Part shown: in pieces, positions 1-57,780 of the stretch
How positions within the stretch are numbered: position 1 is the first letter of the stretch
Layout of the letters: every line of letters starts with the position of its first letter
Virus record (IMG/VR): IMGVR_UViG_3300028571_002227
Span: 1 to 57,879 of that record
Source: a virus
Length of the DNA stretch: 57,879 nucleotides
Strand: one strand, 5' to 3'
The notes under the pieces: model-generated
Seen by the model: the letters and a program-made list of their open reading frames with translations, nothing else
Told to the model about the DNA's origin: nothing
Database searches by the model: none
Program-made: the position numbers and the translations under genes

Positions 1-69
1 ATGGTAGACGCAGTGGACTCAAAATCCACCGAGCTCAAACTCGTGCCGGTTCGAGTCCGGCCTTCGGTA
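1..69 (+). tRNA. tRNA-Leu(CAA), 5' end cut off by the window
   Basis: The sequence folds as the 3' part of a tRNA. The anticodon stem is GTGGA/TCCAC around the loop CTCAAAA, giving anticodon CAA (Leu). A long variable arm follows, then a T arm GCCGG-TTCGAGT-CCGGC and the 3' acceptor strand CTTCGGT with discriminator A at 69. CCA is not encoded. The long variable arm fits a class II tRNA. The 5' acceptor strand and part of the D arm lie outside the window. It is host DNA flanking the mobile element. Confidence 0.9.
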
Positions 70-110: not shown

Positions 111-163
111 TGTATTTTATCATGTAAAATGATTTGGACAGATAGTTTAATCTCAAACGGACG
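111..163 (+). repeat. Left terminal inverted repeat of the Mu-like element
   Basis: It begins TGTATTTTATC, contains TGATTTG at 130-136 and the block AGATAGTTTAATCTCAAACGGACG-like segment at 138-163. The reverse complement of 57723-57780 aligns along the whole length, with two mismatches over the innermost 24 bases. Mu-family ends start 5'-TG, which supports this as the transposase-bound end. The real terminal base could be the TGTA at 111 or the inner TGA at 130. Confidence 0.72.
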
Positions 164-217
164 TTCAAGCTATAAGCGAGTTTGAGGCTTGCTTTTTTGC
201 TATTTTTAGTCGGAAGC

Positions 218-372
218 TAGTTTGATTTGTTTTCATTCTTTTGCATCCATTTGCAGGTTTATTGCATGGTTTGATTTGGATTTGTATTGCCAAAATCAGG
301 CTTCCGACTTAGGCACATAAGGGTTTTAAGCCAATGCAAGAATTGTGCAAGTGGTTTGATTTGAAACGGACG
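218..372 (+). repeat. Internal left-end binding-site-like repeats
   Basis: The motif GTTTGATTTG recurs at 220-229, 269-278 and 354-363. The last copy runs into GAAACGGACG (363-372), which repeats the core of the terminal repeat. The copy at 265-278 (catggtttgatttg) is identical to 14 bases in the right end (57755-57768, opposite strand). A 10-bp perfect inverted repeat, AGTCGGAAGC at 208-217 and its complement at 300-309, surrounds two of the copies. Mu transposase binds several sites at each end, so these are likely secondary transposase sites; that role is inferred. Confidence 0.5.
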
Positions 373-408
373 TGAATTGTTACAATTGCTCTAAAAAACA
401 CTAAAAAT

Positions 409-450: not shown

Positions 451-565
451 CCCTAGAACTTTATATATACGGCTCCTCCGACTGCCATTTTTATTTTGAT
501 TCAGAACAGACACAAAACTCGGAAGTGGAGTTCCAATTTCCCACCCCAAGAGTTATCGTGTTGGT

Positions 566-2524
566 ATGGAAGAATATATAGATATAAAAAAAGTGGCGGA
601 AGTCAAACATATTAGCTCTCGGGCGGTTCGATTGGCTATTCAAAGTGATAAATATATCGCTCGTGAGGTTAAAACTCGAGGGGGCATAACCTATGAAATC
701 CTTATTTCATCACTTGAACCTGATATTCAAGGCTTTTTTAAACTCAAGCCGGAAGTCTTTTATTACCCAACACTTCCGTCTTCTGTATTCATTCCTGATA
801 CGGCGAAGACGGTTGCCCTTGCGAGAATTGATTTAATAAAGCAATGGCTTAAATTTAGAGTCCAACATTCACCAAGATATCAAGGTGATAAATTATTTAT
901 TGAAATGTACAACAGCGGAGCATTTTTAAAAAGACTATTTAAAATTGTAGGAACAACATCTCGAGGTTCGCTTCAAAGATGGAAGCAGATTTATGATGAA
1001 GTCGGAACGTGGGAATCTTTAACTCCACAGTATAGATATTCCTGCATGAATAGTTATAAGACAATATTGACAGATGAAATGTTGAAAATATTTTTAAAAA
1101 TACTTCTGCACCCGAATCAATTTAATATAGGAAAATCAATTAATTTGACAATTCAAATACTAAAGACCAACGGGATTGATGATATTCCATCAATCCCGAC
1201 ATTTAGAAGGTATGCTGAGAATTTTAAAAAGTATAATTATGACAAATGGGTTCTGATGCGAGAAGGTGAAAAAGCTCTGAAAGATAAAGTGGAGCCATAT
1301 ATTGAAAGAGACATTTCAAAACTGGAAGTGGGCGACGTACTAATTGCCGATGGTCATAAGCTAAACTTCCAAGTAATTAATCCATTTACAGGCAAGCCGA
1401 CTAGAGCAACTCTAGTCGGCTTTTTAGATTGGAAATCAGGAGCGTTAGTTGGCTATGAAATTATGCTTGAGGAAAATACTCAATGCATTGCATCTGCTCT
1501 TCGAATGGCTATTTTGAACTTAGGCTTAATTCCTAAAATTGTTTATCAAGATAACGGCAGGGCGTTCAGAGCAAAATATTTTCAGAGTTGCAGTTTTGAG
1601 GAGTCAGGCTTTAATGGGGTTTATCAAAACTTTGGCATAAAATCAGTTTTTGCAAAGCCCTACAACGCTCGGGCGAAAGTAATCGAGCGTTTCTTTTTAG
1701 AATTCCAAGAAGAGTTTGAAAAACTTCTGCCGAGTTATACAGGGACTTCAATTCAGATGAAACCTGCAAGGTTAAAGCGAAACGAAAAACTGCATAAACA
1801 AATGCATAATGATTTTATTCCCACAATAGAACAGGCAATAGGGTTCATTGATTATTGGCTTGGGTATAAACATTCAAAAGGTTGTCCTAACGATAAAAGC
1901 AAATCTATACAGGAAGTCTTGGATAGTGCTCAAAAACAAAACATAGATAAAAATAAACTTGACGACTTAATGCTGAACACCGATTTGAAAACCATTCAAA
2001 GGAATGGTATCAGGTTCTTGCAGACAAATTACAATCACGATAAATTATATGGATTGAAGGAGCGAGTGATTATCAGGTACAGCCTGTTTGACTTAACCAA
2101 AGTAAAAGTTTACTCTGATAAAGGTGAATTTATCTGTGAGGCAAAACGGGTTGAAAAGACGCACCCGATGGCATATCACATGGGGACAATTAAGGATATG
2201 GAAGACTTCAAACAGAAAATTCAAAAGCAGCAAAAAATAAGGAATAGAACGTTGAAAGCGGTTAGGAAATATTTACCTGCTGATGATATTAAATTTCTAA
2301 AAATACAGATGGAAGAAGAAATTATTGAAACAAGTGCAAAAATTATTGAGTTAAAGCCTAAAAAAGAAACGCCGAGAGAGGAACAAATAAATAAACTTTT
2401 TTTTACTTCAGACTATGAAAAATATGAATGGCTGATTGAAAAAGGGTGTACCAATAGTGAGGATAGAGCTTGGCTTACAAACTATATCAGAAGTGATGAA
2501 TACAACAATTTATACGGAGATTAA
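566..2524 (+). CDS. Mu-type DDE transposase (MuA-like), first copy
   Basis: This 652-residue protein is close to MuA length. An N-terminal helix-turn-helix region (about 1-60) precedes an RNase-H-fold DDE core. The catalytic triad is visible as D262 (in LIADGH), D329 (VYQDNG) and E374 (VIERFF). It would bind the element ends and catalyse strand transfer. The next gene, a MuB-like ATPase, starts 3 bases after its stop, so the two form an operon. The protein is clearly diverged from the second transposase at 4406-6394; both look intact. The ribosome binding site at 566 is weak, so a slightly different start is possible. Which copy acts on the outer ends cannot be told from sequence alone. Confidence 0.9.
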   Translation: MEEYIDIKKVAEVKHISSRAVRLAIQSDKYIAREVKTRGGITYEILISSLEPDIQGFFKLKPEVFYYPTLPSSVFIPDTAKTVALARIDLIKQWLKFRVQHSPRYQGDKLFIEMYNSGAFLKRLFKIVGTTSRGSLQRWKQIYDEVGTWESLTPQYRYSCMNSYKTILTDEMLKIFLKILLHPNQFNIGKSINLTIQILKTNGIDDIPSIPTFRRYAENFKKYNYDKWVLMREGEKALKDKVEPYIERDISKLEVGDVLIADGHKLNFQVINPFTGKPTRATLVGFLDWKSGALVGYEIMLEENTQCIASALRMAILNLGLIPKIVYQDNGRAFRAKYFQSCSFEESGFNGVYQNFGIKSVFAKPYNARAKVIERFFLEFQEEFEKLLPSYTGTSIQMKPARLKRNEKLHKQMHNDFIPTIEQAIGFIDYWLGYKHSKGCPNDKSKSIQEVLDSAQKQNIDKNKLDDLMLNTDLKTIQRNGIRFLQTNYNHDKLYGLKERVIIRYSLFDLTKVKVYSDKGEFICEAKRVEKTHPMAYHMGTIKDMEDFKQKIQKQQKIRNRTLKAVRKYLPADDIKFLKIQMEEEIIETSAKIIELKPKKETPREEQINKLFFTSDYEKYEWLIEKGCTNSEDRAWLTNYIRSDEYNNLYGD

Positions 2525-2527
2525 ATT

Positions 2528-3259
2528 ATGAAAAAAGCATTTATTAAAACAAGAAACGTCAAAAACTTCGTTGCCCTTATGGAAAACTTAAAAAAATGCC
2601 CCAGCAATATTCCCAAAATGGCACTTGTGTATGGAGGACATGGACTCGGAAAATCGCAAACTATTTTATGGTGGGCAACAAATAACGATGCTGTGTATGT
2701 AAGAGCAAATCAGGGAATGACAAGCCGATGGCTTTTATCTGAAATAGCTGAAGAGCTTGGAGAAGTACCGTTTTGGCATACGCAGGAAACCTTTAATTTA
2801 ATAGAAAAAAATCTAAACTTAAATCAAAAGATTATTATCGTTGATGAAATTGATTATTTAATTTCAAATCAAAACACAATAGAAACCCTGAGAGATTTGC
2901 ATGATAGAACAGGAGTTCCAATAGTTCTGGTCGGAATGGGAATGGCGGACAAGAAAATTGCAAGATACAAACACCTTGAAGATAGATTTTTTGAGAAGTT
3001 AAAGTTTGAACATTTTAATCAACAGGATATTTCTGAAATAATTTCTCAGTTATCAGATATTAAATTTACAGATAATGCTATTGAATATTTGTCCATTCAA
3101 TCAAATCAATTCAGGCAAATAATTAAATTAATTAATAAGATTGAAAAAATGGCGAATACTAATAATATCAAAGAGATTGATGAATACACTTTAAAGGAGA
3201 TATTAAATGGACAACAAAATACAAAGGCTATGCAAAAGATTAAACAAATTTACGCTTGA
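2528..3259 (+). CDS. MuB-like AAA+ ATPase, first copy
   Basis: This 243-residue ATPase has Walker A GGHGLGKS at about residues 36-43 and Walker B IIIVDEID near 97-104. MuB/TnsC-type ATPases form filaments on target DNA, choose the target and activate the transposase. Unlike the second copy (6384-7262) it lacks the N-terminal helix-turn-helix of classical MuB. A GGAG site at the end of the transposase gene serves its start. The following gene overlaps its 3' end by 53 bases, indicating translational coupling. Confidence 0.85.
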   Translation: MKKAFIKTRNVKNFVALMENLKKCPSNIPKMALVYGGHGLGKSQTILWWATNNDAVYVRANQGMTSRWLLSEIAEELGEVPFWHTQETFNLIEKNLNLNQKIIIVDEIDYLISNQNTIETLRDLHDRTGVPIVLVGMGMADKKIARYKHLEDRFFEKLKFEHFNQQDISEIISQLSDIKFTDNAIEYLSIQSNQFRQIIKLINKIEKMANTNNIKEIDEYTLKEILNGQQNTKAMQKIKQIYA

Positions 3260-3884
3260 AGAGATTTCTTTGATAGCAGAACTTGATAAATCTGAAACAA
3301 AAAAAATTCTTAACGATTTAATCAAAACAAATTTTCTTAAAAAGAAAGATGACATATATATTTATATCGGGGGAATAAAAAAGACAAAACAAGAAAACCA
3401 ATTGCCTTTGATGTTTCAGTTTCATTCACCTGAAACTATTGAATTAATTATTAAATGTTTTTGTGCGGAAATCGAGGTTGATAAAATTGTTAAAATACTT
3501 TCACCACAAAAACATTGTATAAATAAATTCTTTGCTTATTTTAGAGATAAAATTTATGAACAGCAGTTTACGGCATTAAATAAGCATATAGAGGAAAATC
3601 CTTATATTCCTCGTGAGCGAGATTATATGGGCAAAAAAGTTCATTTATACCTTTATGAATATAAATTATTTGTTTCTACTAAATGTTTAAATGGCCCCGT
3701 TTCAAAGAATTATAACAATGATGAAAGATTGGAAATAAAAAATGTATATTTAAGATCTTACAGAAAAGTTCAAAATATTGCTTACAAAAAATATTTTCAT
3801 CTGCACCTGACCGAACAAATTTGGAGATATGGAAAAGAATTTAAACAATTGAACGAAGAATTATTCGATTTGCTATTTTTATAA
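3207..3884 (+). CDS. Uncharacterised winged-helix-like protein of the first transposition module
   Basis: This 225-residue protein starts inside the end of the ATPase gene behind a strong AAGGAG site. Residues about 16-55 (TLEEISLIAEL...LIKTNFLKK) read like a winged helix-turn-helix followed by a basic beta strand. The rest is lysine- and tyrosine-rich with no motif I recognise, and it has no zinc-binding cysteines of the TniQ type. Its place as third gene of the A/B operon suggests a DNA-binding accessory or regulator of transposition, which is inference. No equivalent follows the second A/B pair. Confidence 0.65.
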   Translation: MDNKIQRLCKRLNKFTLEEISLIAELDKSETKKILNDLIKTNFLKKKDDIYIYIGGIKKTKQENQLPLMFQFHSPETIELIIKCFCAEIEVDKIVKILSPQKHCINKFFAYFRDKIYEQQFTALNKHIEENPYIPRERDYMGKKVHLYLYEYKLFVSTKCLNGPVSKNYNNDERLEIKNVYLRSYRKVQNIAYKKYFHLHLTEQIWRYGKEFKQLNEELFDLLFL

Positions 3885-4199
3885 TTCAAACATTAAGAAA
3901 TATTAAGAATTAGTTGACAGTTCCATGGACGAGGGAAAATACATTATGTAGATTTGCTTTGGCGTAATATTTTAATTTTGCGAGGTAAAGTCCGAACCCT
4001 GAAAATGGAATAATAGTGGGAAATGTTTTTTTAAATTTTGTCAATTTGTTGACAGGCTGAAATCCACTTACTGACTAAATAGTAGCGTATTGGAATATAA
4101 TAGCTTTATTGGTATTTGCACCTAATTGATTTGACATAGTGATAATTATTTTGCACTTACGACAAACAGTGACGGCGTAGTCAATTTAGGAATGAAAAA
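3885..4199 (+). promoter_or_regulatory. Intergenic control region with second operator copy
   Basis: These 315 bases have no convincing gene. They contain TTGTCAATTTGTTGACAGG at 4038-4056, the exact reverse complement of 409-427. Two TTGACA boxes (about 3913 and 4130) could be -35 elements for rightward promoters toward the small HTH gene at 4200. It probably separates two regulated units, or marks the right edge of a nested transposition module. Confidence 0.45.
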
Positions 4200-4391
4200 A
4201 TGAGCGATGGTATTACAAGTAAAAGTCAGCTTTGGAGAAAAATGACAATATTGTTATTAGACATTAGAAATTCAGAAATAGCAGATGAGTTGCATATTTC
4301 CAAAAGTTTTGTTAGTAAAATCATATGCGGCTCAAGAAAACATCCAGAATTTGACTCGTGGTTGATTAGTAAAGTCCTTAATTTAGACTAG
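4200..4391 (+). CDS. Small helix-turn-helix regulator (Ner-like position)
   Basis: This 63-residue protein has a helix-turn-helix at about residues 23-45 (NSEIADELHISKSFVSKIICG). It lies immediately upstream of the second transposase, where Mu carries the early regulator Ner. The start is supported by AGGAATG 6 bases upstream. Likely role: repressor or early-lytic regulator acting on nearby palindromes. No separate larger CI-type repressor gene was recognised in the element. Confidence 0.65.
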   Translation: MSDGITSKSQLWRKMTILLLDIRNSEIADELHISKSFVSKIICGSRKHPEFDSWLISKVLNLD

Positions 4392-4405
4392 CGAGGATTG
4401 ATTTA

Positions 4406-6394
4406 GTGAAACAAGGACATTTATCCCAAAACAATAATACCGAAAATATTTGGCTTTCACAGAATGAAGCCAGTACACTTTTGGGTATAAAAGTTAAAAC
4501 ATTACGACAAAATTGTAGAGATGGAGTATTCCGCTTTAAAATTAGACAAATAGATAATAAATCAATTTATTATGTCTCGTTGAGTTCATTGCCTGAAAAA
4601 TATCAAGAAATATATTTTAAGATTGATACAACTATTCCTGAAAAAGATATCGATAACGCTTATTCCAATGCTCCTGAATGGGCAAAATCCAAAGCAGAAA
4701 AATATATTTCGATAATAAATGCCTGCAAAGGCTTGTCAGGGAATCCATTGGAGGAGTTTGTTATTCAGTGGAATAAAACAAACCCAGATTTAAAAACCTC
4801 ATATCCTAGCGTAAATAGAATGAGAAGAAGATTTGAAGAGCTTGGAATATCAGGACTTCTAGCCCAATATGGCTGCAGATATGGTGAAACTGTTATTGGC
4901 GAAGCAAGTTTTGAATATTTTAAAAACCTCTGCCTAGTTGAAGGTGCTCCCTCGCTGTATTCATGTTGGGAAATCACAAGAGGCTCTGCAATAAGGCAGG
5001 ATAATATAGATAAAGACAATTTCCCAAGCTATCAAACATTTAGAAGAAGATTAGAGCGAGAAGTTCCAAAACAAGCAATTTATCTCGCCAGGTATGGACA
5101 TTCAAAATGGAACAAAAAATACGGTAGTTATATCGAACGAGATTATTCAACAATTACTTGTGGCAAAGTTTGGGTGGCCGATCATGCACAAATTGATGTC
5201 GGATGTATAACCAGTGATGGAAAAGTCGTTTTCCCTTGGGTTACAGCGTGGCGTGATTTTAAATCTGGCAAATGGCTTGGCTGGATTTTACAAACCGGCT
5301 CACCAAATTCAGACCATATTTTTCAAAGTTTTTATTACTCGGCTGATGAATATGGTTTGCCAACAGATGTCATTATTGATAACGGAAAAGATTTTCGATG
5401 CAAGGATTTTGCAGGTGGCAGGAAAGTCGTAAGAGTTGATACTAATACTGCAAAAACAACCTCTATGCTTCAAGAATTGAATGTGCAAGTCCATTTTGCC
5501 TTACCTTACAACGCTCAAACGAAACCAATCGAAAGAGATTTTTTGAAAATAAAAGAATTATTATCAAAACATTGTGTCGGCTACAGAGGCGGAAATGTTG
5601 TCGAACGTCCTGAAAAACTCGTTACCGAAATAAAGCAGGGCAAATTAATGCCGTTTGATAAATTCAAAGAAATTTTCGATGATTTTATTATTAATATTTT
5701 GAATAAACGTCCATCCCAAGGGAAAAATTTAAAAAGTTTATCGCCGAATGAATTATTTAATCAAGAGTTCAAAGAAAAGATTACTGTATCAAAAGATGCT
5801 TTAAAATTATTCTGCATGAGAACTTCAAGAACTTATACCATCGGCAGAAATGGGATTAAAGACGGAGAGCTTGATATTAATTATTGGGCTGATTGGATGA
5901 TTTCTCACTATGGGGTGAAAGTATATTTGAGACGGGATATTCAAAATTATAAAGAGGCTTGGGCATTTAAAGAAGAAAATCAAGAATTTGTAGGCAAGAT
6001 TTTTGCAACAAAAGCGGTAGTTGCACTTAATGCCGACAAGATTTCCAAGGAAGAATTTAAAGAAGCTATCGGAAATAAAAAACGTGTTCAAAAGATTGTT
6101 CAAGCTTATGCGAAACAAACTCAAGAAATTGGGATTGAAGAACAATGCCAAAACTACAAGGCTGCATACTTGAATTCAAATGCTGAAGTATCCCCAAAAG
6201 TTTCTAAAATAGCCAACACCAATATGGATAAAGCTGTTAGAAAAAACAAAAAGCAAGAATCAAAAGGCAAGCAAAATTTATCTATTTTAACTGATGATTC
6301 AACTACTACTGAGAAATTTTCCGAAAAGTTTTATTTATTTGAAACAGATTTATTGTTAGAGCAAGAATCAAAAGGAGTTAAATATGGATATTAG
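4406..6394 (+). CDS. Mu-type DDE transposase (MuA-like), second copy
   Basis: This 662-residue protein starts with GTG behind GAGG. The N-terminal region (about 14-65, WLSQNEASTLLGIKVKTLRQ) resembles the MuA-type HTH. The DDE triad is D259 (VADHAQ), D325 (IIDNGKDF) and E376 (KPIERDF). Its stop overlaps the start of its own MuB-like ATPase. Length and order (HTH regulator, A, B, then GemA and Mor) match the canonical Mu early region, so this is the likelier phage transposase, with the copy at 566 an addition or a duplicated specificity. Confidence 0.9.
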   Translation: MKQGHLSQNNNTENIWLSQNEASTLLGIKVKTLRQNCRDGVFRFKIRQIDNKSIYYVSLSSLPEKYQEIYFKIDTTIPEKDIDNAYSNAPEWAKSKAEKYISIINACKGLSGNPLEEFVIQWNKTNPDLKTSYPSVNRMRRRFEELGISGLLAQYGCRYGETVIGEASFEYFKNLCLVEGAPSLYSCWEITRGSAIRQDNIDKDNFPSYQTFRRRLEREVPKQAIYLARYGHSKWNKKYGSYIERDYSTITCGKVWVADHAQIDVGCITSDGKVVFPWVTAWRDFKSGKWLGWILQTGSPNSDHIFQSFYYSADEYGLPTDVIIDNGKDFRCKDFAGGRKVVRVDTNTAKTTSMLQELNVQVHFALPYNAQTKPIERDFLKIKELLSKHCVGYRGGNVVERPEKLVTEIKQGKLMPFDKFKEIFDDFIINILNKRPSQGKNLKSLSPNELFNQEFKEKITVSKDALKLFCMRTSRTYTIGRNGIKDGELDINYWADWMISHYGVKVYLRRDIQNYKEAWAFKEENQEFVGKIFATKAVVALNADKISKEEFKEAIGNKKRVQKIVQAYAKQTQEIGIEEQCQNYKAAYLNSNAEVSPKVSKIANTNMDKAVRKNKKQESKGKQNLSILTDDSTTTEKFSEKFYLFETDLLLEQESKGVKYGY

Positions 6395-7262
6395 AGATGA
6401 ATTACGGAGCATAATGCTTAATAAAAAATACAGTTTTTCTGCGGTTGCAAAAGCAACCGGAATATCACAAACGGTGATTAATCTATGGTTAAACAATAAT
6501 TACACGGGCAAAAATGATAAGGTTGCAGATACTATTAACAATTTTGTACAAAGAGAAAAAGAACGTAATTTCAAAAATATAATTCCATACGTTGAAACAT
6601 CAGTTGTTAAATATATTCATGAGGTGGCAAGATTATGCCATACGAACGGCGAGATTGGCGTTTGCTACGGTGAATCAGGACTTGGTAAGACTATTGCAGT
6701 AAAGGAATATTCAAAGCTGTATTCCGACTCCATCTTGATAGAAACTGACCCCGGTTACACAACAAAATCTTTATTGTGCGAAATGCACAAACGGCTTGGG
6801 CTTTCTTCTAAAGGATGTTCGTATGATTTGATGGATGAAGTTGTAAGAAAATTAAGCAACTCAGGAAGATTATTGATAATTGATGAAGCTGAAAACCTAC
6901 CATATAAAGGCTTAGAGGTTTTAAGAAGAATCCACGACAAAACCGGTGTAGGAATGCTTTTAATCGGAATGCCGGCACTGGTTGAAAATTTGAGGGGCAG
7001 CCAAAATCAATACAGGCAGCTTTATTCAAGAGTTGGATTTTCAAAATCATTGGATAGACTTTTGCCTGTTGATGTTTCTAATATTTTAAAATCAGTTGAC
7101 GAAGATTTAAAACTTTGCCCAAGCTTTTTGACTTACTCAAACGGTAATACTAGAACTCTGGCGAAGCTTATATTAAGAGCGCCGAGTGTTGCTAAATACA
7201 ACAAAAAAGAAAAATTGGACACTCTGATAATAAAGCAAACTTCGCAGTTGATTATGGTCTAG
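6384..7262 (+). CDS. MuB-like AAA+ target-selection ATPase, second copy
   Basis: This 292-residue protein has an N-terminal helix-turn-helix (about 15-45, FSAVAKATGISQTVINLWL), as in phage Mu B. The AAA+ core carries Walker A GESGLGKT near 95-102 and Walker B LLIIDEAE near 148-155. AGGAG precedes the ATG, and the gene overlaps the transposase by 11 bases. It is expected to bind target DNA and deliver it to the transposase at 4406-6394. Confidence 0.88.
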   Translation: MDIRDELRSIMLNKKYSFSAVAKATGISQTVINLWLNNNYTGKNDKVADTINNFVQREKERNFKNIIPYVETSVVKYIHEVARLCHTNGEIGVCYGESGLGKTIAVKEYSKLYSDSILIETDPGYTTKSLLCEMHKRLGLSSKGCSYDLMDEVVRKLSNSGRLLIIDEAENLPYKGLEVLRRIHDKTGVGMLLIGMPALVENLRGSQNQYRQLYSRVGFSKSLDRLLPVDVSNILKSVDEDLKLCPSFLTYSNGNTRTLAKLILRAPSVAKYNKKEKLDTLIIKQTSQLIMV

Positions 7263-7272
7263 GAACAGGAAA

Positions 7273-7416
7273 ATGACAAAAAACGACAAACTATTTTATA
7301 TTTTTATAATCGTCTTAATTCTAATTATACTTGGAGTTCAGATTGGGATTGCCCATGGTCGAAAATTACAAATTGAAGATATAAGGAACGATAATGATTA
7401 CATCTGCTCAAATTAA
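7273..7416 (+). CDS. Small single-span membrane protein
   Basis: This 47-residue open frame sits between the ATPase and GemA. After MTKNDK comes a strongly hydrophobic stretch, about residues 7-27 (LFYIFIIVLILIILGVQIGI), then a basic/charged tail: one transmembrane helix. AGGA lies just upstream, and the end overlaps the GemA start by 23 bases, consistent with an early operon. Function unknown; superinfection exclusion or membrane signalling are possibilities only. Confidence 0.5.
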   Translation: MTKNDKLFYIFIIVLILIILGVQIGIAHGRKLQIEDIRNDNDYICSN

Positions 7417-7861
7417 AAAAATTCATACACTCAAAAATATATTACATCTTGATGATGAACTTTATGTTGAACTGTTAATGAGTTTTGGCGTGCATAGCTC
7501 TAAAAAATTGACATCTACGGAAGCAAATATTTTTGTTGAGATTTTAGAAGAAAAAGCAATTTTGACTAATAAATGGGTGATAAGAAATAAAAAATTCGAA
7601 GATTTAAGTTCTAGGGTTAATTCAAATGAAGTGGCTATGGCAACGCCGCCTCAGCTAAGAATGATTGAATCAATATGGCGAGAAATTTGTTATGTCGATA
7701 CCGATGAATTTGCAAAGCAATCACTCAGAAAATTTCTACAAAATAAATTTAAAATTAGTGACTTAAAATTTCTAACTAAAAACACTGCAGTTAGAGTTAT
7801 ACGTGCAATTTTGCAAATAAAACAGAACGTAAAAGGGTCAAAGTTGCCCTTTGTAAAGTAG
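7394..7861 (+). CDS. gemA: GemA-like protein (Mu gp16 family, DUF1018)
   Basis: This 155-residue protein has the family's start, ITSAQIKKIHTLKNIL..LDDELY, and the central MATPPQLRMIESIWREI segment. GemA of Mu affects host gene expression and DNA topology early in infection. Position directly after B and before Mor is typical of transposable phages. It overlaps the small membrane protein upstream. Confidence 0.8.
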   Translation: MITSAQIKKIHTLKNILHLDDELYVELLMSFGVHSSKKLTSTEANIFVEILEEKAILTNKWVIRNKKFEDLSSRVNSNEVAMATPPQLRMIESIWREICYVDTDEFAKQSLRKFLQNKFKISDLKFLTKNTAVRVIRAILQIKQNVKGSKLPFVK

Positions 7862-8193: not shown

Positions 8194-8493
8194 ATGGATT
8201 TTGAAATTAAACCTTGGATAGAAAATATAACGGCAGAAGATATGCCAAATGATGATTTAAGATTTATCGCTGAAAAAGCAGGTCTAAAATCAGCACTTGC
8301 TCTTATTTTCTTTACCCCAGGACTTAATGTTTCCATCCCCAAAACAGCATTCAAGCAACTAAAAGACAAATATATTTTGAATAATTATAGTGGCGATAAA
8401 TACTCGATGAATGATTTATCCGTAAAATGTTCGGTTTCCCAAAGATATATTTACCGATTGATAAAAAACAAAATCAAACCCCAAAACCCTTAA
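8194..8493 (+). CDS. mor: Mor-type middle/late transcription activator
   Basis: This 99-residue protein matches Mor/C family layout: a helical N-terminal dimerisation part ending in a beta strand with GLNVSIPK, then a C-terminal HTH (about 69-93, SMNDLSVKCSVSQRYIYRLIKN). Mor activates the middle promoter in Mu and C the late promoters. Only one such gene is present here, so it may drive the divergent late region directly. AAGAGG precedes the start and a strong terminator follows. Confidence 0.82.
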   Translation: MDFEIKPWIENITAEDMPNDDLRFIAEKAGLKSALALIFFTPGLNVSIPKTAFKQLKDKYILNNYSGDKYSMNDLSVKCSVSQRYIYRLIKNKIKPQNP

Positions 8494-9526: not shown

Positions 9527-10429
9527 TTGAATCAACGCAAAGAAAAAGGTGGCTTGCATTTATTTAATAGAAAATCGGGTACTCACATCTTGTTAGACGA
9601 ATTGAACTTTTCAGAAAATGAAATATCAAAGTCTCCTAGAACAATAAGTATAGCGGTTACAAATGTTTGCAATCTGAATTGCCCATTCTGTTATGCCCCC
9701 AAAAATCATAATTCACTACCACTCGATTTTTTAAAAAATGCAGTTAAAGAATTTGATAAATTAAAAGTTTTTGAAATAACGATAGGTGGCGGAGAGCCCT
9801 TCGCCTATCCTAATTTAGTCGAATTCTGCAAGTGGACATGGGAAAATACAAAATTAGGTATTAATATTACAACCAATGGTCAATTGTTAAATGAAAATAT
9901 TATTTCAGATTTAGAAGGTTATATTTCATCTATTCGTATATCTATAGAAGCGATAGGTGCGAAATATTCAAAAGTAAGAGGGGCGTCTTTTTCTAAAATC
10001 CAAGCAAGTATAAATTCATTAAAAGGAAAAATTCCAATGTCTATTAATTGCGTTGTCTTAAAAAATAATGTTGACAATTTGATTGAAGTAATAGAATTTG
10101 CAATGAAAAACTCTATTTATGATGTTTTAATTATTGCAGAACACAATAAAGGATTATCCGTATTGGATGAAAAAGAATTACACAAAATTGAAAATATTAT
10201 TCTTGAATATAAAGATAAGATCCAATTAACCTTAACTGATGAACTTGCAAAATTATTAGATATAAATATACTTTCCGATGGTGATACTGAAGAATATGGA
10301 TTTGCCCATCTTTCCTCGGATAAAAAAATAAAACAAAATTCATTTGCAATAGATGGAATAAAAATAAATGATATAAGTGATATAAAAGACGCATTCATTA
10401 AGTTATATAAAAATAAGGAGGTTGTATGA
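9527..10429 (+). CDS. Radical SAM enzyme of unknown substrate
   Basis: This 300-residue protein starts with TTG behind AAGGAG. The cluster-binding motif C48-x3-C52-x2-C55 (VCNLNCPFCYA) and the SAM-binding GGGEP (about 88-92) are intact, followed by a normal partial TIM barrel (TTNGQLL, SIRISIEA). There is no SPASM cysteine cluster at the C-terminus. Its 3' end overlaps the next gene (ATGA), so the pair is co-translated. It lies alone on the plus strand between early and late phage genes, typical of a moron. Possible roles are peptide modification or defence chemistry; the substrate cannot be read from the sequence. It is not viperin-like beyond the radical SAM core. Confidence 0.8.
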   Translation: MNQRKEKGGLHLFNRKSGTHILLDELNFSENEISKSPRTISIAVTNVCNLNCPFCYAPKNHNSLPLDFLKNAVKEFDKLKVFEITIGGGEPFAYPNLVEFCKWTWENTKLGINITTNGQLLNENIISDLEGYISSIRISIEAIGAKYSKVRGASFSKIQASINSLKGKIPMSINCVVLKNNVDNLIEVIEFAMKNSIYDVLIIAEHNKGLSVLDEKELHKIENIILEYKDKIQLTLTDELAKLLDINILSDGDTEEYGFAHLSSDKKIKQNSFAIDGIKINDISDIKDAFIKLYKNKEVV

Positions 10430-32426: not shown

Positions 32427-33875
32427 ATGGAAAACAATTTATTAGAAAATAAAAATACAAAACAAGGACTCGCAGATGAAATTGCGACAAGAAAACGTTC
32501 GTTAAATTTTTATTCTTTAGGATATATGTTACCCGACCCTGATCCTGTTTTGAGAAAACAGGGCAAAGATATGAAAGTTTACAGAGAATTACTTTGTGAT
32601 GCTCACGTTTTTGCCTGTACCCAATCAAGAAAAGCGGGAGTTTTATCTCTCGAATGGGATATAAATCGAGGAACGGATAAAGACCAAAATGCACAAAAAA
32701 TAGAAGATTTATTAAAAGGTTTGGATATTTATCAGCTTATTAACGATATTCTTGAAGCATCATTCTTTGGTTTTCAACCGATTGAAATTTTGTGGCAGAA
32801 GATTGATAATCTAGTTTTGCCATCGGCACTTGTTGCAAAACCGCCTGAATGGTTTTGCTATGATGATGAGAATAATTTAAAATTTAGAACCAAAGAAAAT
32901 TATTGGGGAGAAGAATTGCCGGACAAAAAATTCCTTTGCCCACAATCAAACGCAAGCTATGATAATCCTTATGGAGAAAGAGTTCTTTCAAGAGTTTTCT
33001 GGCCCGTTACATTTAAAAAAGGCGGTTTGAAATTTTGGGTTTTATTCAGCGAAAAATACGGAATTCCATATTTAATCGGCAAACATCCAAGAGGTGCATC
33101 AAAAGAAGAAACTGATACGTTGGCTGATTTGCTTGAAAGTATGATTCAGGACGCAATTGCGGTTATACCTGATGATAGCTCTGTTGAAATTATGGAAGCT
33201 GATAAATCATCCTCTGCTGAAATATTTGACAAATTAATTGATAAGATGAATGCAGAAATATCAAAAGCAATTCTTGGACAAACGCTTACAACTGAAATTG
33301 GAAGCACCGGCAGCTATGCCGCAAGTCAAACTCACATGAGTGTAAGACAGGATATTATTGATTCGGATAAAAAAATCGTTGAAAAAACTATTAATCAACT
33401 AATCAAATGGATTTATGAGCTTAATTTTCCCAATCAGGATATTCCTCAGTTCGAAATGTATGAAATTGAGGATGTTGATTTGAACCTTGCTCAAAGAGAC
33501 AAAGTTCTTGTTGATTGTGGAGTGAAATTTACAAAAAAATATTTCATCAAAAATTATGGATTTGACGAAGAAGATATAGAAATTGCGGAAGTTAGTAAAA
33601 CATCAGCCTTTAAGCAGTTTAATGAAACAAAAGACGAAGAAGCAGGACAGGATGAAATTGACGGATTGTTTGATTTGATTTCTGAAGAAGAACTTCAGGC
33701 AATTTCAAAAGATACTTTAAATCCGCTTCTTAAATTGCTTTCAAAATGCAAAACTGAAGAAGATTTTAAAAAGGTCCTAGATGACAAAAACCTAAAAACA
33801 GAAATGTTTGAAGAAGTTTTATCAAAAGCACTTTTCCTGTGCGAAGCACAAGGGAGGTACGATGGACTTGAATAA
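32427..33875 (+). CDS. Portal protein (Mu gp29-like, DUF935)
   Basis: This 482-residue protein has the DUF935 features: DPVLRKQGKDMKVYRELLCDAHVFACTQSRKAGVLSLEW and ILGQTLTTEIGSTGSYAASQTHMSVRQDI. It forms the dodecameric DNA channel. The acidic C-terminus (about 390-480) overlaps the start of the cytosine methyltransferase gene by 14 bases. Confidence 0.92.
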   Translation: MENNLLENKNTKQGLADEIATRKRSLNFYSLGYMLPDPDPVLRKQGKDMKVYRELLCDAHVFACTQSRKAGVLSLEWDINRGTDKDQNAQKIEDLLKGLDIYQLINDILEASFFGFQPIEILWQKIDNLVLPSALVAKPPEWFCYDDENNLKFRTKENYWGEELPDKKFLCPQSNASYDNPYGERVLSRVFWPVTFKKGGLKFWVLFSEKYGIPYLIGKHPRGASKEETDTLADLLESMIQDAIAVIPDDSSVEIMEADKSSSAEIFDKLIDKMNAEISKAILGQTLTTEIGSTGSYAASQTHMSVRQDIIDSDKKIVEKTINQLIKWIYELNFPNQDIPQFEMYEIEDVDLNLAQRDKVLVDCGVKFTKKYFIKNYGFDEEDIEIAEVSKTSAFKQFNETKDEEAGQDEIDGLFDLISEEELQAISKDTLNPLLKLLSKCKTEEDFKKVLDDKNLKTEMFEEVLSKALFLCEAQGRYDGLE

Positions 33876-34998
33876 ACCCCAATTGAACCCAAGTCAACTA
33901 AAATTCTTTGATATGTTTTCAGGTATCGGCGGATTTAAAATCGCTTTAGAGAGAGCAGGTTTTAAATGTATCGGATACTGTGACAATGATAAATATGCAA
34001 CAAAATTGTATCGGGAATTTTTTAACACAGAAGAGGAGATGTACTTCGATGATGCAACAACAATCAGAACCGATGAATTGCCGGACTTTGATATCCTGTG
34101 TGCAGGATTTCCTTGCCAAGCTTTCTCTATTGCAGGAAAAAGACGAGGCTTTAGCGAGTCCAGAGGCACAATGTTTTTTGAAGTCGCAAGGATTTTGCGA
34201 GACAAAAAACCCAAATATTTTATACTCGAAAATGTTAAAGGGCTACTTAACCACGAGCGTGGAGGAACTTTTGCAACTATCGTTAAAATTCTCACCGACC
34301 TTGGGTATTCAACTCAATGGCAGGTTCTTAATTCTAAGTTCTTCGGCATACCTCAAAACAGGGAAAGAGTGCTCCTTGTCGGATGTCTTACAGGAGAATG
34401 TATCGGAAAAGTATTTCCTATCGCCTCAAATGATGCAAAAAATATTAGTAACTTAAATACAATTGCCATTACCAAAAGAAAATCGCAAGGCAATAGAGTT
34501 TACTCGACAGACGGAATAAGTTCCTGCCTTACGTCGAATGGTGGCGGTCAAGGCGGTAAAACAGGACTATATTTTATTAATAAACCGAGATTTGATACCT
34601 ATAAAGCCTCAGATATTGTTCAAACTTTGAAAGTCGCCGGTGACACGCCTTTAATGAGGGTAAAAAATGGTACTAAAAAAGGCTATGATGAAGCACTTGT
34701 TGGTGACGGAATAAATTTAGCCTATCCACAAAGTGCCACAAGAAGAGGTAGAGTCGGCAGAAAAGTCTCACAAACTTTGGATACCCACTGTAATATGGGG
34801 ACTATTGATAATTTCAGGATAAGAAGATTAACCCCTCTTGAATGTTTCAGACTTCAAGGATTCCCTGATGCAATGGTTAAAAAAGCATATGAGCTTAAGA
34901 TTTCTGATGCACAATTATACAAAATGGCAGGAAATGCTGTAACCGTAAACACCGTTTATGCAGTTGCTAAGAGAGTCGCGGAGGTGGAAAATGCCTGA
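33862..34998 (+). CDS. dcm: DNA (cytosine-5) methyltransferase
   Basis: About 378 residues. The start MDLNKP is chosen on a GGGAGG site; an upstream ATG at 33808 lies deep within the portal gene. Motifs: I (FDMFSGIGGFKIALE), IV (AGFPCQAFSIAG, catalytic Cys), VI (ENVKGL), VIII (QNRERVLLVG) and X (AGNAVTVNTV). All are intact. No cognate endonuclease is adjacent, so it is a solitary phage methylase, probably protecting phage DNA from host restriction. Inserted between portal and gpF genes and overlapping both. Confidence 0.92.
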   Translation: MDLNKPQLNPSQLKFFDMFSGIGGFKIALERAGFKCIGYCDNDKYATKLYREFFNTEEEMYFDDATTIRTDELPDFDILCAGFPCQAFSIAGKRRGFSESRGTMFFEVARILRDKKPKYFILENVKGLLNHERGGTFATIVKILTDLGYSTQWQVLNSKFFGIPQNRERVLLVGCLTGECIGKVFPIASNDAKNISNLNTIAITKRKSQGNRVYSTDGISSCLTSNGGGQGGKTGLYFINKPRFDTYKASDIVQTLKVAGDTPLMRVKNGTKKGYDEALVGDGINLAYPQSATRRGRVGRKVSQTLDTHCNMGTIDNFRIRRLTPLECFRLQGFPDAMVKKAYELKISDAQLYKMAGNAVTVNTVYAVAKRVAEVENA

Positions 34999-35798: not shown

Positions 35799-36614
35799 AT
35801 GACAATTGACAAAAAACACTTATTGAATTGGGTCGGTGGAAAAAGATTATTGCGAAAAACTATCGCACCACTTATACCCAAAGACCTTATTTCTTACATT
35901 GAACCTTTCGGAGGAGGTGGTTGGATACTTTTTTATAAAGACAGATGGGCCGATTTGGAAATTTATAATGACTTAGATGGAAGACTTGTTAATCTTTTCA
36001 GAATTGTAAAATACCACCCGGAAGCACTAAAAGAAGAGTTAAAATACTTACTTGGTTCTCGTGAAATGTTTATGCAATTTTTAAATGCTGTTCCTTATAC
36101 GGATATCCAAAAAGCAGTACAATTCTTATTTTTAATTACCCGCTCTTTTGGGGGCAGAGGTGGGACATATGGCACAGTTAAAAAATCTTCAGGCGGGGCT
36201 AGCAAAAGCCAAAGAAATATTCTATCTAAGATAGATTCAATCCACGAAAGATTAGACAAGGTTTTAGTCGAAAACAGAGACTTTGAAAAACTGATTAAAC
36301 AATACGACCACGAAGGTGCATTTTTCTATTGTGATCCTCCATATACTTTCGGCTGTGGGTATGAAGTTACTTCAACAGAAGGATTCGCCCACGAAAGATT
36401 GAGAGACCTTTTGAAAAATATTCAGGGCCGATTCTTGCTTTCTTACGATGACAGCCCCAAGGTGCGTGAATTATACAAAGGCTTCGAAATGATTGCCATT
36501 GAACGATTAAACGGAATCAACAACAAAGGTGGCGACAGAAAAAATAAAATGTTCAAAGAACTTTTAATTGCAAATTATCCAATTGAGGACTTATTTAATG
36601 GACGAACCAATTGA
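35799..36614 (+). CDS. dam: DNA adenine methyltransferase (D12 class)
   Basis: This 271-residue protein has LLNWVGGKRLL and EPFGGGGW (SAM-binding), and FFYCDPPYTFG (catalytic DPPY) near 180. RFLLSYDDSP is further downstream. It is a solitary Dam-type N6-adenine methylase, the second DNA methylase in this head operon. It occupies a late position similar to Mu's mom gene. Its end overlaps the gpG-like gene. Confidence 0.9.
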   Translation: MTIDKKHLLNWVGGKRLLRKTIAPLIPKDLISYIEPFGGGGWILFYKDRWADLEIYNDLDGRLVNLFRIVKYHPEALKEELKYLLGSREMFMQFLNAVPYTDIQKAVQFLFLITRSFGGRGGTYGTVKKSSGGASKSQRNILSKIDSIHERLDKVLVENRDFEKLIKQYDHEGAFFYCDPPYTFGCGYEVTSTEGFAHERLRDLLKNIQGRFLLSYDDSPKVRELYKGFEMIAIERLNGINNKGGDRKNKMFKELLIANYPIEDLFNGRTN

Positions 36615-37980: not shown

Positions 37981-39114
37981 ATGGAATCAATGCAAAAGGC
38001 TGTAGGAAATGAAAAAACTTATATTACACGGCCATTATTGCCTTCGATTGATTCTTTAATTATCCAATTAGAAGAGATTTGGGATTCTAAATGGTTGACT
38101 AATATGGGGGAAAAGCATAACCTTTTGGGTTCTCGATTAAAAGATTTTTTAAAAGTCAAAAATTTATCCCTTTTCAATAATGGCACAATTGCTCTTTTAA
38201 CGGCTTTAAAAGCACTAGAGTTGCCATATGGTAGTGAAGTAATTACGACGCCTTTTACATTTGCTGCTACACCTCACTGTATATCATGGAACGGATTAAA
38301 ACCAGTATTTTGTGATATTGAACCTAATACAATGACAATTGATGCAAATAAAATTGAATCGTTGATTACTCCTGAGACATCCGCAATATTAGCAGTTCAT
38401 GTTTATGGTTTTCCTTGTGACGTTGAAAAAATCGAAGAGATAGCCCAACGATATAATTTAAAAGTAATTTATGATGGTGCACACGTTTTTTCTACAGAAA
38501 TTAATGGAAAAGGAATTGGTGAATTTGGTGACATAACGATGTTTTCATTCCATGCAACAAAATTATTTAACACAATAGAAGGTGGATGTTTGACATATAA
38601 TGATGAGAAATTATACAAAAAAATATATAATTTGCGCAACTTTGGGATTCAATCTGAAGAATTAGTTGAGAATGTCGGTATAAATGGCAAGATGAACGAA
38701 ATTCAAGCCGCTGTTGGGCTCCTGAATTTAGAACTTGTTGCGAGTGAAAAACAAAAAAGAGCTCAAATAAACTCTTTTTACGATAAAAACATTTCAAAAA
38801 TTGATGGGATATTTATTCCCCAAATGCCTTCTAACACTACAAACTCATATCAATATTATCCAATTATCATTAATGATAATTATCCTATTTCTCGTAATGA
38901 ATTACATGATAAATTTAAGTCTAAAAATATTATGACACGTAAATATTTTTATCCATTATGTTCTGATTATGAGTGTTATAGAGACTTAAAATCATCCTCA
39001 ATAGAAAATTTACCAATTGCAAACGACATAAAAAATAGAGTTCTTTGTCTTCCTTTTTATGGGGACTTGCATAAAGAGGTTCTTGTAAAAATTTGTGAGG
39101 TGTTAAGTGAGTAA
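37981..39114 (+). CDS. DegT/DnrJ/EryC1/StrS-type sugar aminotransferase
   Basis: This 377-residue PLP enzyme has the Schiff-base lysine K194 (FHATKLFN) and the aspartate of IYDGAHVF (about 165), and FTFAATPHCI lies near 92-101. It transaminates a nucleotide keto-sugar to an amino sugar (VioA/FdtB-like). It is the first gene after the recombination switch and opens the glycan operon. The next gene overlaps it by 8 bases. Confidence 0.9.
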   Translation: MESMQKAVGNEKTYITRPLLPSIDSLIIQLEEIWDSKWLTNMGEKHNLLGSRLKDFLKVKNLSLFNNGTIALLTALKALELPYGSEVITTPFTFAATPHCISWNGLKPVFCDIEPNTMTIDANKIESLITPETSAILAVHVYGFPCDVEKIEEIAQRYNLKVIYDGAHVFSTEINGKGIGEFGDITMFSFHATKLFNTIEGGCLTYNDEKLYKKIYNLRNFGIQSEELVENVGINGKMNEIQAAVGLLNLELVASEKQKRAQINSFYDKNISKIDGIFIPQMPSNTTNSYQYYPIIINDNYPISRNELHDKFKSKNIMTRKYFYPLCSDYECYRDLKSSSIENLPIANDIKNRVLCLPFYGDLHKEVLVKICEVLSE

Positions 39115-46919: not shown

Positions 46920-47933
46920 ATGAAAATTAAAGCCGGACAAAAAATAATAGATTTAATAAGAGGTAAAAAAACTGGGGCATCAAAAGCAGAATCTAAATTG
47001 CAGATTAAGTATAATTTACTTACGGAAAAATTGTCGAAATTCGACTTGGAAGGAATATTTCAAACATATGCGTTATTAGCTGATGATTATTCAAAAGAAA
47101 TGTTTATTAAAGTCATGCAATATCGACTTACAGAGGCTAAAAACGTACTTCCGCCACAAAAAATGTATGATCAGGAAATACTCAAAACTTTAAAAATAAG
47201 CGATGAAATGATTAAAATTTGGAATTTCAATCTTCAACTACTTGATTTAAATAACCTTGGATATGACGTAAAAGTATATAACGATCCGGGTGGCTTAAAA
47301 ATGGGGCTTGGACAATACAAATACGCAAATGATAAGATAAGTATTAAGGTCGAAGAGGGTGATTATGTTATTGATGGCGGTGCTTGTTATGGTGATACAG
47401 CATTGTATTTTGCCCATGATGTGGGAGCAAATGGCAAAGTGTTCTCTTTTGAATTTTTAAAAGACAATGTTGAAATGTTTAATAAAATGCTTGATTTAAA
47501 TCCTGAATTAAAAAATAGAATACAACTTTTTAAAAATGCTCTTTGGGAAAATTCAAATGAACATTTGTACGTAATTGGCAATGGTCCGGCAACAAACTGC
47601 TCGTTAGAAAAACCTGAAAAATATGACGCTCAAGTCCAAACAAAATCGATTGATGACATGGTAAAAGAGCAAAATATTGAAAAAATCAATTTTATAAAAC
47701 TTGATATTGAAGGTGCTGAACTTGAATGCTTGAAAGGTGCTAAAAATACTATTCAAACATTCAAACCGAAACTTACAGTTTGTTTATATCATGATCAAAC
47801 TCATTTTGTATCAATACCAAAATATTTAAAACAATTGGTTCCTGAATATGATTTTTATCTTGATCATCATACCGAAAGTTTGGGAGAAACCGTTTTGTAT
47901 GCTACGATCCAAGGAGAATCAAATAATGGATAA
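46920..47933 (+). CDS. FkbM-family methyltransferase
   Basis: This 337-residue protein has the SAM-binding motif YVIDGGACYGDTALYFAHDVGANGKVFSFE (about 143-172) and INFIKLDIEGAELECLKGA (about 257-275), both typical of FkbM. It methylates a hydroxyl group, likely of a sugar in the glycan made here. The stop overlaps the start of the DAHP synthase gene. Confidence 0.87.
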   Translation: MKIKAGQKIIDLIRGKKTGASKAESKLQIKYNLLTEKLSKFDLEGIFQTYALLADDYSKEMFIKVMQYRLTEAKNVLPPQKMYDQEILKTLKISDEMIKIWNFNLQLLDLNNLGYDVKVYNDPGGLKMGLGQYKYANDKISIKVEEGDYVIDGGACYGDTALYFAHDVGANGKVFSFEFLKDNVEMFNKMLDLNPELKNRIQLFKNALWENSNEHLYVIGNGPATNCSLEKPEKYDAQVQTKSIDDMVKEQNIEKINFIKLDIEGAELECLKGAKNTIQTFKPKLTVCLYHDQTHFVSIPKYLKQLVPEYDFYLDHHTESLGETVLYATIQGESNNG

Positions 47934-48765
47934 TTTAAAATTAGTAAATAAAAAAAATTCAGAAGACAAAACGACCTTTAAAATAGGTAATATAGAAGTT
48001 GGCGAGGACTTTTTAATGATTGCAGGTCCTTGCAGTGTTGATAATGAAGAACAAATTATTCAAACCGCTATTGCTGTTAAAAAAGCCGGTGCAAATATGT
48101 TGAGGGGTGGAGCCTATAAACCTAGGACTTCTCCTTATGCTTTTCAAGGGCTAGGATTGAAGGGATTGCAATATTTGAAAAAAGCTGGTGAAATTGCTGA
48201 TTTACCTATTATTACAGAAGTTGTAGATACAAGAGATGTTTATTTAGTAGCAGAATATGCTGATGTTTTACAGATAGGTGCCAGGAATATGCAAAATTTT
48301 TCTTTACTTCAAGAAGCTGGACGTACAAACAAACCAGTGTTGTTAAAGAGGGGCTTCTATGCGACCTTGGAAGAATGGTTAAATGCAGCAGAATACATTA
48401 TGAACGAAGGTAATCAACAAGTAATACTGTGCGAAAGAGGGATTCGGACAGTTGAGACTTACACACGGAACACTTTGGATTTGAGTGCTGTTGCTTCATT
48501 AAAAAATATAACTCACCTTCCAATAATAACCGATCCGTCCCATGCCACTGGCAGACTTGAACTAATAGAACCGATGTGTTTAAGCTCTATTGTTGCAGGA
48601 TGTGATGGATTAATGCTCGAGGTGCATATCAATCCTAAAGACGCCTTATGCGATGCTAAACAGGCTTTGAATCCTATACAATTTTCAAATATAATGTCGA
48701 AAATTAATTTAACTAACAATTTCTATAATAATTTGTATCATGAAGAAATCGTCAAAATGTCCTAA
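47926..48765 (+). CDS. aroF: 3-deoxy-7-phosphoheptulonate (DAHP) synthase-like
   Basis: About 279 residues. The start MDNLKL sits on AAGGAG. Features: MIAGPCSVDNEEQI, LRGGAYKPRTSPYAFQGLG, ITEVVDTRD, LQIGARNMQNF, LLKRGF, LCERGIRT, DPSHATGR and LMLEVH. This is the KDO8P/type I-beta DAHP synthase fold without a regulatory domain. It makes DAHP from PEP and erythrose-4-phosphate at the head of the shikimate pathway. As last gene of the glycan operon it may feed an aromatic or related acid for the AMP ligase; this is speculative. It could equally be host housekeeping. Confidence 0.8.
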   Translation: MDNLKLVNKKNSEDKTTFKIGNIEVGEDFLMIAGPCSVDNEEQIIQTAIAVKKAGANMLRGGAYKPRTSPYAFQGLGLKGLQYLKKAGEIADLPIITEVVDTRDVYLVAEYADVLQIGARNMQNFSLLQEAGRTNKPVLLKRGFYATLEEWLNAAEYIMNEGNQQVILCERGIRTVETYTRNTLDLSAVASLKNITHLPIITDPSHATGRLELIEPMCLSSIVAGCDGLMLEVHINPKDALCDAKQALNPIQFSNIMSKINLTNNFYNNLYHEEIVKMS

Positions 48766-57722: not shown

Positions 57723-57780
57723 TCGTCCGTTTCAGATTAGACTATCTGATATATCAAATCAAACCATGTGATAATTTACA
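57723..57780 (-). repeat. Right terminal inverted repeat of the Mu-like element
   Basis: Contains CGTCCGTTTC..AGATTAG..CTATCTG, then ATATATCAAATCA and ends AATTTACA. Read on the minus strand it starts TGTAAATTATC, matching the left end's TGTATTTTATC, then CATGGTTTGATTTG, also found at 265-278. The right end could be TACA at 57780 or the inner CAAATCA at 57761. Confidence 0.7.

Follow-up and report, generated by a model that had tools for sequence, protein, structure and literature searches.

The viral record IMGVR_UViG_3300028571_002227 of IMG/VR (positions 1 to 57,879; this whole stretch of 57,879 nucleotides is called the window throughout) holds a 57.7 kb prophage of a Mu-like myophage. 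Its host is Candidatus Gastranaerophilales, uncultured gut relatives of cyanobacteria, or close kin. Portal, terminase, tail sheath, tape measure and endolysin genes reside in the same element and mark it as a myophage. In its left part the prophage carries two modules in tandem, each with a DDE transposase and an AAA+ ATPase:

566-2524, plus strand: A1, DDE transposase of module 1, 652 amino acids (aa) (phrog_310, 1.9e-94; triad D262/D329/E374)
2528-3259, plus strand: B1, TniB/TnsC-like AAA+ ATPase without helix-turn-helix (HTH), 243 aa (PF05621, 9.8e-10; AAA_22; ShTnsC, 3.8e-4)
3207-3884, plus strand: ORF3, third gene of module 1 (place kept in relatives; AlphaFold2 model; winged-helix matches for residues 1-61)
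4200-4391, plus strand: Ner-like small regulator (phrog_1468 transcriptional repressor, 2.7e-5; position as ner in Mu)
4406-6394, plus strand: A2, MuA-type transposase, 662 aa (phrog_310, 1.6e-85; triad D259/D325/E376)
6384-7262, plus strand: B2, MuB orthologue with N-terminal HTH, 292 aa (phrog_296, 4.6e-76; MuB structure 8xvb, 5.3e-23; 2mqk, 3.4e-5)
7394-7861, plus strand: GemA-like gene (PF06252, 3.2e-13)
8194-8493, plus strand: Mor-like late activator (phrog_836, 2.3e-10; PF08765, 3.7e-5, just below cut-off)

The original prediction had described two strongly diverged DDE transposases with intact triads and two AAA+ ATPases, only the second with the classical N-terminal HTH. Gene coordinates, frames and triads proved correct, A1 and A2 share 29% identity across about 430 aa, and the HTH is indeed confined to B2, where HTH_26 scores just under the Pfam cut-off and the N-terminal structure of MuB (2mqk) is matched. 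The inventory was right for these four genes, while ORF3, the Ner-like gene and a 5'-truncated tRNA gene at 1-69 had been overlooked. Both transposases find their best match in phrog_310, over nearly the whole length, and both ATPases match phrog_296. Above the Pfam cut-off, A2 contains DDE_2, Mu I-gamma and Mu-transpos_C (PF02914, PF09039, PF09299) and A1 Mu-transpos_C, with rve and I-gamma appearing only below it. B1 matches TniB (PF05621) above cut-off; its structure matches are near equal (ShTnsC 3.8e-4 vs MuB 4.8e-4). With the GemA-like and Mor-like genes after B2 and the Ner-like gene before A2, module 2 has the layout of Mu, and judged by its sequence it is an ordinary Mu replication module (ner-A2-B2-gemA-mor).

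The start of ORF3 overlaps the end of B1. Its AlphaFold2 model (predicted local distance difference test score, pLDDT, 88.1; predicted template modelling score, pTM, 0.67) consists of an N-terminal winged helix followed by a helical and beta-stranded second part. A fold search with the whole model matched only the winged helix and thereby barely probed the C-terminal fold. TniQ gave no match among 28 ORF3 members at E values up to 0.1, a search that a remote homologue may escape. Third genes of other A1 elements have an N-terminal part that by eye resembles that of ORF3. Some contain integrase core-binding domains (L024, Phage_int_M 5e-10; L252, weakly), the one in L218 has a Mu I-gamma domain, and in L148 (12454-14115) a third gene of 553 aa has both a Mu I-gamma domain and an integrase-like region besides the N-terminal part. 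We propose ORF3 as a putative target selector. An impression by eye that its C-terminal part is IS1595-type transposase-like received no support from Pfam.

Relatives of A2 were searched in 383 genomes of the order of genome G007, of which 74 gave a match at 1e-40. We compared 64 A2 neighbourhoods, 57 from this order-wide search and 7 found earlier; the remaining matches were left out. A1, B1 and the third gene lie collinearly upstream of A2 in 32 of the 34 relatives with at least 53% A2 identity and at least 4.2 kb of upstream sequence, and the spacing is similar throughout, with A1 starting some 3.7-4.9 kb ahead of A2. The presence of two complete modules, which the original prediction had set against the single pair usual in transposable phages, is thus a conserved trait. 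The two exceptions (L208 and L210, A2 56%) have no A1. Loci with shorter upstream sequence (L193, L200, L232-L234, L139-L141) carry whatever part of module 1 fits; L205 and L214-L217 were too short to judge, likewise L224 among the distant A2 relatives. At A2 identities of 50% or below, none of 15 relatives with enough sequence has a collinear A1 (L219-L223, L225-L230, L235, L236, L142, L143). L142 has an inverted A1-B1 about 4 kb from A2, and L237 (29%) has none. By eye, a repressor-type gene and a small Ner-type gene precede A2 in three of the four A2-only phages listed (L219, L221, L226, L235). L218, with A1-B1, a third gene, a repressor-type gene on the opposite strand and then A2-B2-gemA, looks like an early stage of the tandem.

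A1 relatives were also sought with the back-translated A1 motif DNGRAFRAK in genome contigs. This gave at least 115 stretches, mostly from Candidatus Gastranaerophilales, Melainabacteria or other gut bacteria. By tblastn, A1-like genes of at least 45% identity occupy at least 113 places in the listed loci, many followed by a B1-like gene. Plasmid records contained only distant A1 relatives, and the first automatic viral scans one relative or none. Elements with A1, B1 and a third gene in which no A2 gene was seen exist, as do A2-only phages. Three further elements with non-phage cargo keep A1-B1-ORF3-A2 and have no B2, gemA or mor; they are flanked by the target duplications CCAGC (14.5 kb), AACAG (21.0 kb) and CTCAA (15.8 kb). 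Here a small HTH gene follows A2 (terminase-small-like in the one examined, from G026) and cargo follows in turn, by eye with DNA-methyltransferase-like genes in two of the three.

Both transposases are kept intact. All 35 A1 sequences that cover the catalytic triad have it complete (contig ends truncate 3 others), as do 64 of 65 A2 sequences, the one lacking it being the 29% relative L237. Median ratios of nonsynonymous to synonymous substitution rates (dN/dS; Nei-Gojobori, pairs with dS 0.05-1, the pairs being non-independent) were 0.086 for A1 (36 pairs), 0.110 for B1 (37), 0.130 for ORF3 (29), 0.109 for A2 (53) and 0.042 for B2 (48). Both transposases are under purifying selection; neither is one module alone conserved nor one transposase always inactive, the outcomes that would have spoken against two functional modules. 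In a tree of 80 transposases, built by a quick method with midpoint root and containing several long branches, A1 and A2 form separate, well supported groups, A2 being closer to Bacillus phage BalMu-1 and gut Mu-like phages. The early branching order (L218, then the window) is identical in the A1 and A2 tandem clades. A1 of L113, L150, L153 and L003, where no A2 was seen, falls within the tandem clade. Distances of A1 and A2 are correlated (r=0.79, n=33; r=0.66 for n=19 spaced representatives), and 0 of 2000 permutations were as high in either case. The two modules are co-inherited.

One pair of ends encloses both modules:

111-373, plus strand: left end, terminus TGTA at 111, end-type sites at 145-163 and 354-372 (inverted match to the right end; GTTTGATTTGAAACGGACG sites)
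57723-57780, minus strand: right end, terminus at 57780, sites at 57724-57742 and 57746-57764 (same type as the right ends of five relatives)

With TGTA termini at 111 and 57780, the left end has its best inverted partner anywhere in the window, and the inverted ends, to which the stretches 111-163 and 57723-57780 named in the original prediction belong, are real. The relatives G117 and G007a have three sites of the form GGTRTGATTATTTNGGGCAAA with few mismatches at the left end and one or two, in inverted orientation, at the right; between ORF3 and A2 no end-type site was found at up to 5 mismatches. The 5-bp duplications AAAAT and TTGAG surround complete prophages of 52.4 and 53.1 kb. Such duplications emerged when TG starts close to the left end were tried, each chosen left end having 1 to 32 candidates. 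The chosen right termini share TGTAAA....CAC and score 36-45 against at most 15 in shuffled contigs, with a matrix built from the same ends. The right-end type TGTAAA..CAC also occurs in an A1-B1-third-gene element without A2. Hence the idea of an A1-type left end combined with an A2-type right end was dropped. The two end specificities suggested by the original prediction are not borne out; a single end pair surrounds both modules. L113/L144 and L145 share the left end of the window and may be truncated tandem elements. The left end of the A2-only L221 is similar by eye. For the common A1-only transposons (left end TATAGGTTTTCAGGACAG) a search for right ends found none, and the ends of the A2-only phages G109 and G021 were likewise looked for and not found.

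The record begins within a tRNA gene, and the element starts 41 bp after that gene:

1-69, plus strand: 3' part of a tRNA gene, host flank (Rfam tRNA RF00005, 31.9 bits, 5' end missing; tRNA-Leu by eye)

Placement was counted at loci with 3 kb of upstream sequence, taken from 35 tandem places and at least 113 A1-scan places before this length cut. Among the matches listed, 21 of 26 tandem elements and 38 of 56 A1-scan loci have a tRNA or transfer-messenger RNA (tmRNA) gene on the same strand in the 3 kb preceding A1; for the opposite strand the counts are 0 of 26 and 0 of 56. The RNA genes are of 12 kinds in the tandem set and at least 16 in the A1-scan set, tmRNA occurring in both. From RNA gene to element start the distances were 36, 52, 70, 70 and 107 bp in five elements with defined termini. 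The typical place of an A1-family element is thus directly after a tRNA or tmRNA gene of the same orientation. Among distant A1-like genes, found in other bacteria or on viral contigs and with at least 1 kb of upstream sequence, none of ten loci had a same-strand tRNA gene upstream (L033, L042, L100, L107, L124, L126-L129, L132). Beside 5 tandem elements and 9 A1-scan loci without a tRNA gene, a search with Rfam revealed no other RNA genes; in a further set, L230 contains a signal recognition particle RNA several kb from A2.

Genome G003 (G003:C4; L152, L153, L263, L264) has an array of such elements beside one tRNA-Ser gene. Here a 23.0 kb A1-B1-ORF3 element with the duplication CGGAA interrupts the left end of an older element that has A1, B1 and a third gene but no A2. 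No matching 5-bp duplication was found for the older element. The 23.0 kb element holds a stretch that by eye resembles a phage head gene of L003, and looks like a decayed prophage.

Two short palindromic motifs bear on how the modules may be controlled:

409-427, no strand: palindromic motif upstream of A1, with an exact inverted 19-bp copy at 4038-4056
4038-4056, no strand: second copy, upstream of the Ner-like gene and A2 (shuffle and palindrome tests)

The first copy lies at -155 from A1 and the inverted one at -367 from A2, before the Ner-like gene. None of 40 shuffles gave an inverted pair as long, and the palindrome test gave 0 of 100. L184 and L209 have different palindromes at both corresponding places, L211 by longest shared word only, and in the palindrome test 6 of 33 elements reached at most 5 of 100 shuffles where about 1.7 are expected. 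The pair probably represents an operator common to both modules, which it fits better than transposon ends. A shared operator is likely in the lineages of the window, L184 and L209 and unproved in the other lineages. Directly before A1, a leader at window positions 505-566 (CGGAAGTGGWGTTCC, AGAGTTA..GTGT) is conserved and recurs in distant relatives; by eye a hairpin is possible.

On balance we favour a division of labour, in which module 1 serves homing and lysogeny and module 2 Mu-type replicative transposition. An A2-type Mu-like phage would have acquired module 1 on the left, probably in a single event, and both modules would have been passed on together since. Module 1 would home the incoming phage to the 3' flank of a tRNA gene as a safe lysogenic site, with ORF3 presumably selecting the target, and A2-B2 would perform replicative transposition in the lytic cycle, both modules possibly standing under common repression. 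Conservation, intact triads, purifying selection, co-inheritance, the single end pair with 5-bp duplications in relatives and the tRNA adjacency on which this view draws are directly supported.

Several observations weigh against it. The flanks of the window have no matching 5-bp duplication (ATATT/CTGAT), so that they may be rearranged or joined in assembly. From the elements compared, neither A1 nor A2 could be linked to the outer ends. No tRNA gene was found within 3 kb of 5 of the 26 tandem elements. Conversely, a same-strand tRNA gene lies within 4.5 kb of A2 in 5 of 15 A2 phages without A1 (opposite strand 0 of 15), which suggests that A2 alone, or an A1 module acting in trans, can reach such sites; the difference in tRNA adjacency between tandem elements and A1-less A2 phages has a nominal Fisher p=0.006 with windows of unequal length. 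Finally, transposons without B2 or phage genes keep A2, and a purely lytic A2 does not explain them.

This last observation leads to the main rival, that A1 and A2 co-act in every transposition, as a heteromer or with one end or step each, while site choice falls to B1 and ORF3, and B2 is a phage-specific accessory only. It owes its standing to the defence-cargo transposons that keep A1-B1-ORF3-A2 after the loss of B2, gemA and mor in the three duplication-flanked cases. A2 of this B2-less kind shows dN/dS of 0.06-0.08 among pairs of L198, L199 and L138, and co-inheritance and the single end pair for both transposases also agree with joint action. However, A1-B1-third-gene elements in which no A2 was seen and A2-only phages exist, and in the phages each transposase has its own ATPase. 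We regard obligatory co-action as rather unlikely.

That one transposase has given up transposition for a regulatory role, or for immunity against or competition with related elements, appears improbable. Up to 8 B1-like matches per genome point to many related elements in the same hosts, which makes competition plausible, but the catalytic triads are kept (35/35 A1, 64/65 A2). The insertion of one element within another's end beside the same tRNA gene also disagrees with the immunity or competition function that the original prediction had considered, and for which we found no evidence. A module 1 that is a decaying insertion leftover, useless to the phage, is highly improbable; L208 and L210 indicate that its loss is possible, whereas dN/dS is low in all five genes and order and spacing are conserved. 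Least credible is a form of the nesting raised originally, in which module 1 would be a transposon of its own within the left end of the phage, bounded by the exact inverted 19-bp pair around A1-B1-ORF3. Against it, relatives have module 1 in unchanged position and spacing but lack such ends, strong end-type sites and target duplications occur only at the outer ends (the sites in two complete relatives, the duplications around whole elements), no 5-bp duplication is visible beside the pair, and L184 and L209 carry other palindromes at the corresponding places.

Division of labour in the phages and joint action in the transposons may be parts of one history. Tentatively, and with less confidence than in the division of labour itself, we suggest that a two-pathway phage with two transposases on one end pair gave rise to MuB-less, defence-spreading transposons in which both transposases co-act, and that the third-gene family swaps DNA-binding parts from integrases or other transposases as target selectors.

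Mu is the textbook phage with a single, almost unspecific transposase, and inserts at near-random sites. The window shares with Mu a MuA-type A2, a MuB-type B2 and Ner-, GemA- and Mor-like genes in the order of Mu (c, ner, A, B, gemA, mor), as well as several end sites and, in its relatives, the 5-bp target duplication. It differs by a second complete transposase-ATPase module at its left end, and its family by the one-strand placement beside tRNA genes. Among named or deposited phages, BalMu-1 and the gut Mu-like phages L006 and L008 are the nearest A2 relatives in the tree; these have one transposase-ATPase pair in the stretches read.

According to excerpts of two reports, Tn7-like elements use two target pathways and several of them, including CRISPR-associated transposons (CASTs), home to tRNA genes, CyCAST inserting 30-33 nt past the tRNA (PMC11406308, PMC10293859). 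Compared with what these excerpts describe, the TnsC/TniB-like B1, the fixed orientation past tRNA genes and the defence-type cargo of relatives are similar. In contrast, no TniQ/TnsD was detected in ORF3, there is no CRISPR, and many different tRNA genes and tmRNA genes are used here. A two-pathway life is conceivable here too, but it would use two transposases where Tn7 has two target selectors. TnsF of Tn6022, as presented in an excerpt (PMC10293859), is a target selector derived from a tyrosine recombinase and targets comM. The integrase core-binding domains in third genes of some A1 elements (L024) are reminiscent of it, although no TniQ partner was found here and ORF3 of the window has another C-terminal domain. 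TnsF is a precedent for a selector of such origin. Titles and abstract openings of literature on two or second transposases in Mu-like phages, or on Gastranaerophilales transposases and tRNA, mention no such arrangement; the individual parts are of known kinds, and within this material no published account of their combination or of its conservation came up. If the division of labour is true, safe integration and replication would be separable in a transposable phage, much as Tn7 keeps its two pathways apart by exchanging selectors. Such a phage family also makes testable how two DDE transposases share one end pair and how a tRNA flank is recognized without detectable TniQ or guide RNA.

In the A1-B1-third-gene transposons a small terminase-small-like HTH gene follows the third gene, and then cargo resembling restriction or defence genes. 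The terminase-small-like gene was seen in L252 (9130-19001; Terminase_5, 2.7e-9), in L202 of G026 (9953-10381; phrog_4151) and more weakly in L024 (4608-7925). These transposons might be satellites using the packaging of Mu-like phages. On the viral contig L003 (1392-3722), the reading frame of an A1 relative (69%) located beside a tmRNA gene continues into a terminase-small-like part; terminase follows, as if B1, ORF3 and module 2 had been deleted.

Near the right end, the window carries a Shedu gene (56230-57420; SduA_C, 2.8e-35) and an FRG-domain gene (54237-55163), both probably defence cargo. The head gene region includes genes for a cytosine and an adenine DNA methyltransferase (33808-34998 and 35799-36614). 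Aminotransferase-like (37981-39114), DAHP-synthase/NeuB-like (47848-48765) and ABC-transporter (49349-51172) genes suggest a phage-borne metabolic or sugar gene cluster.

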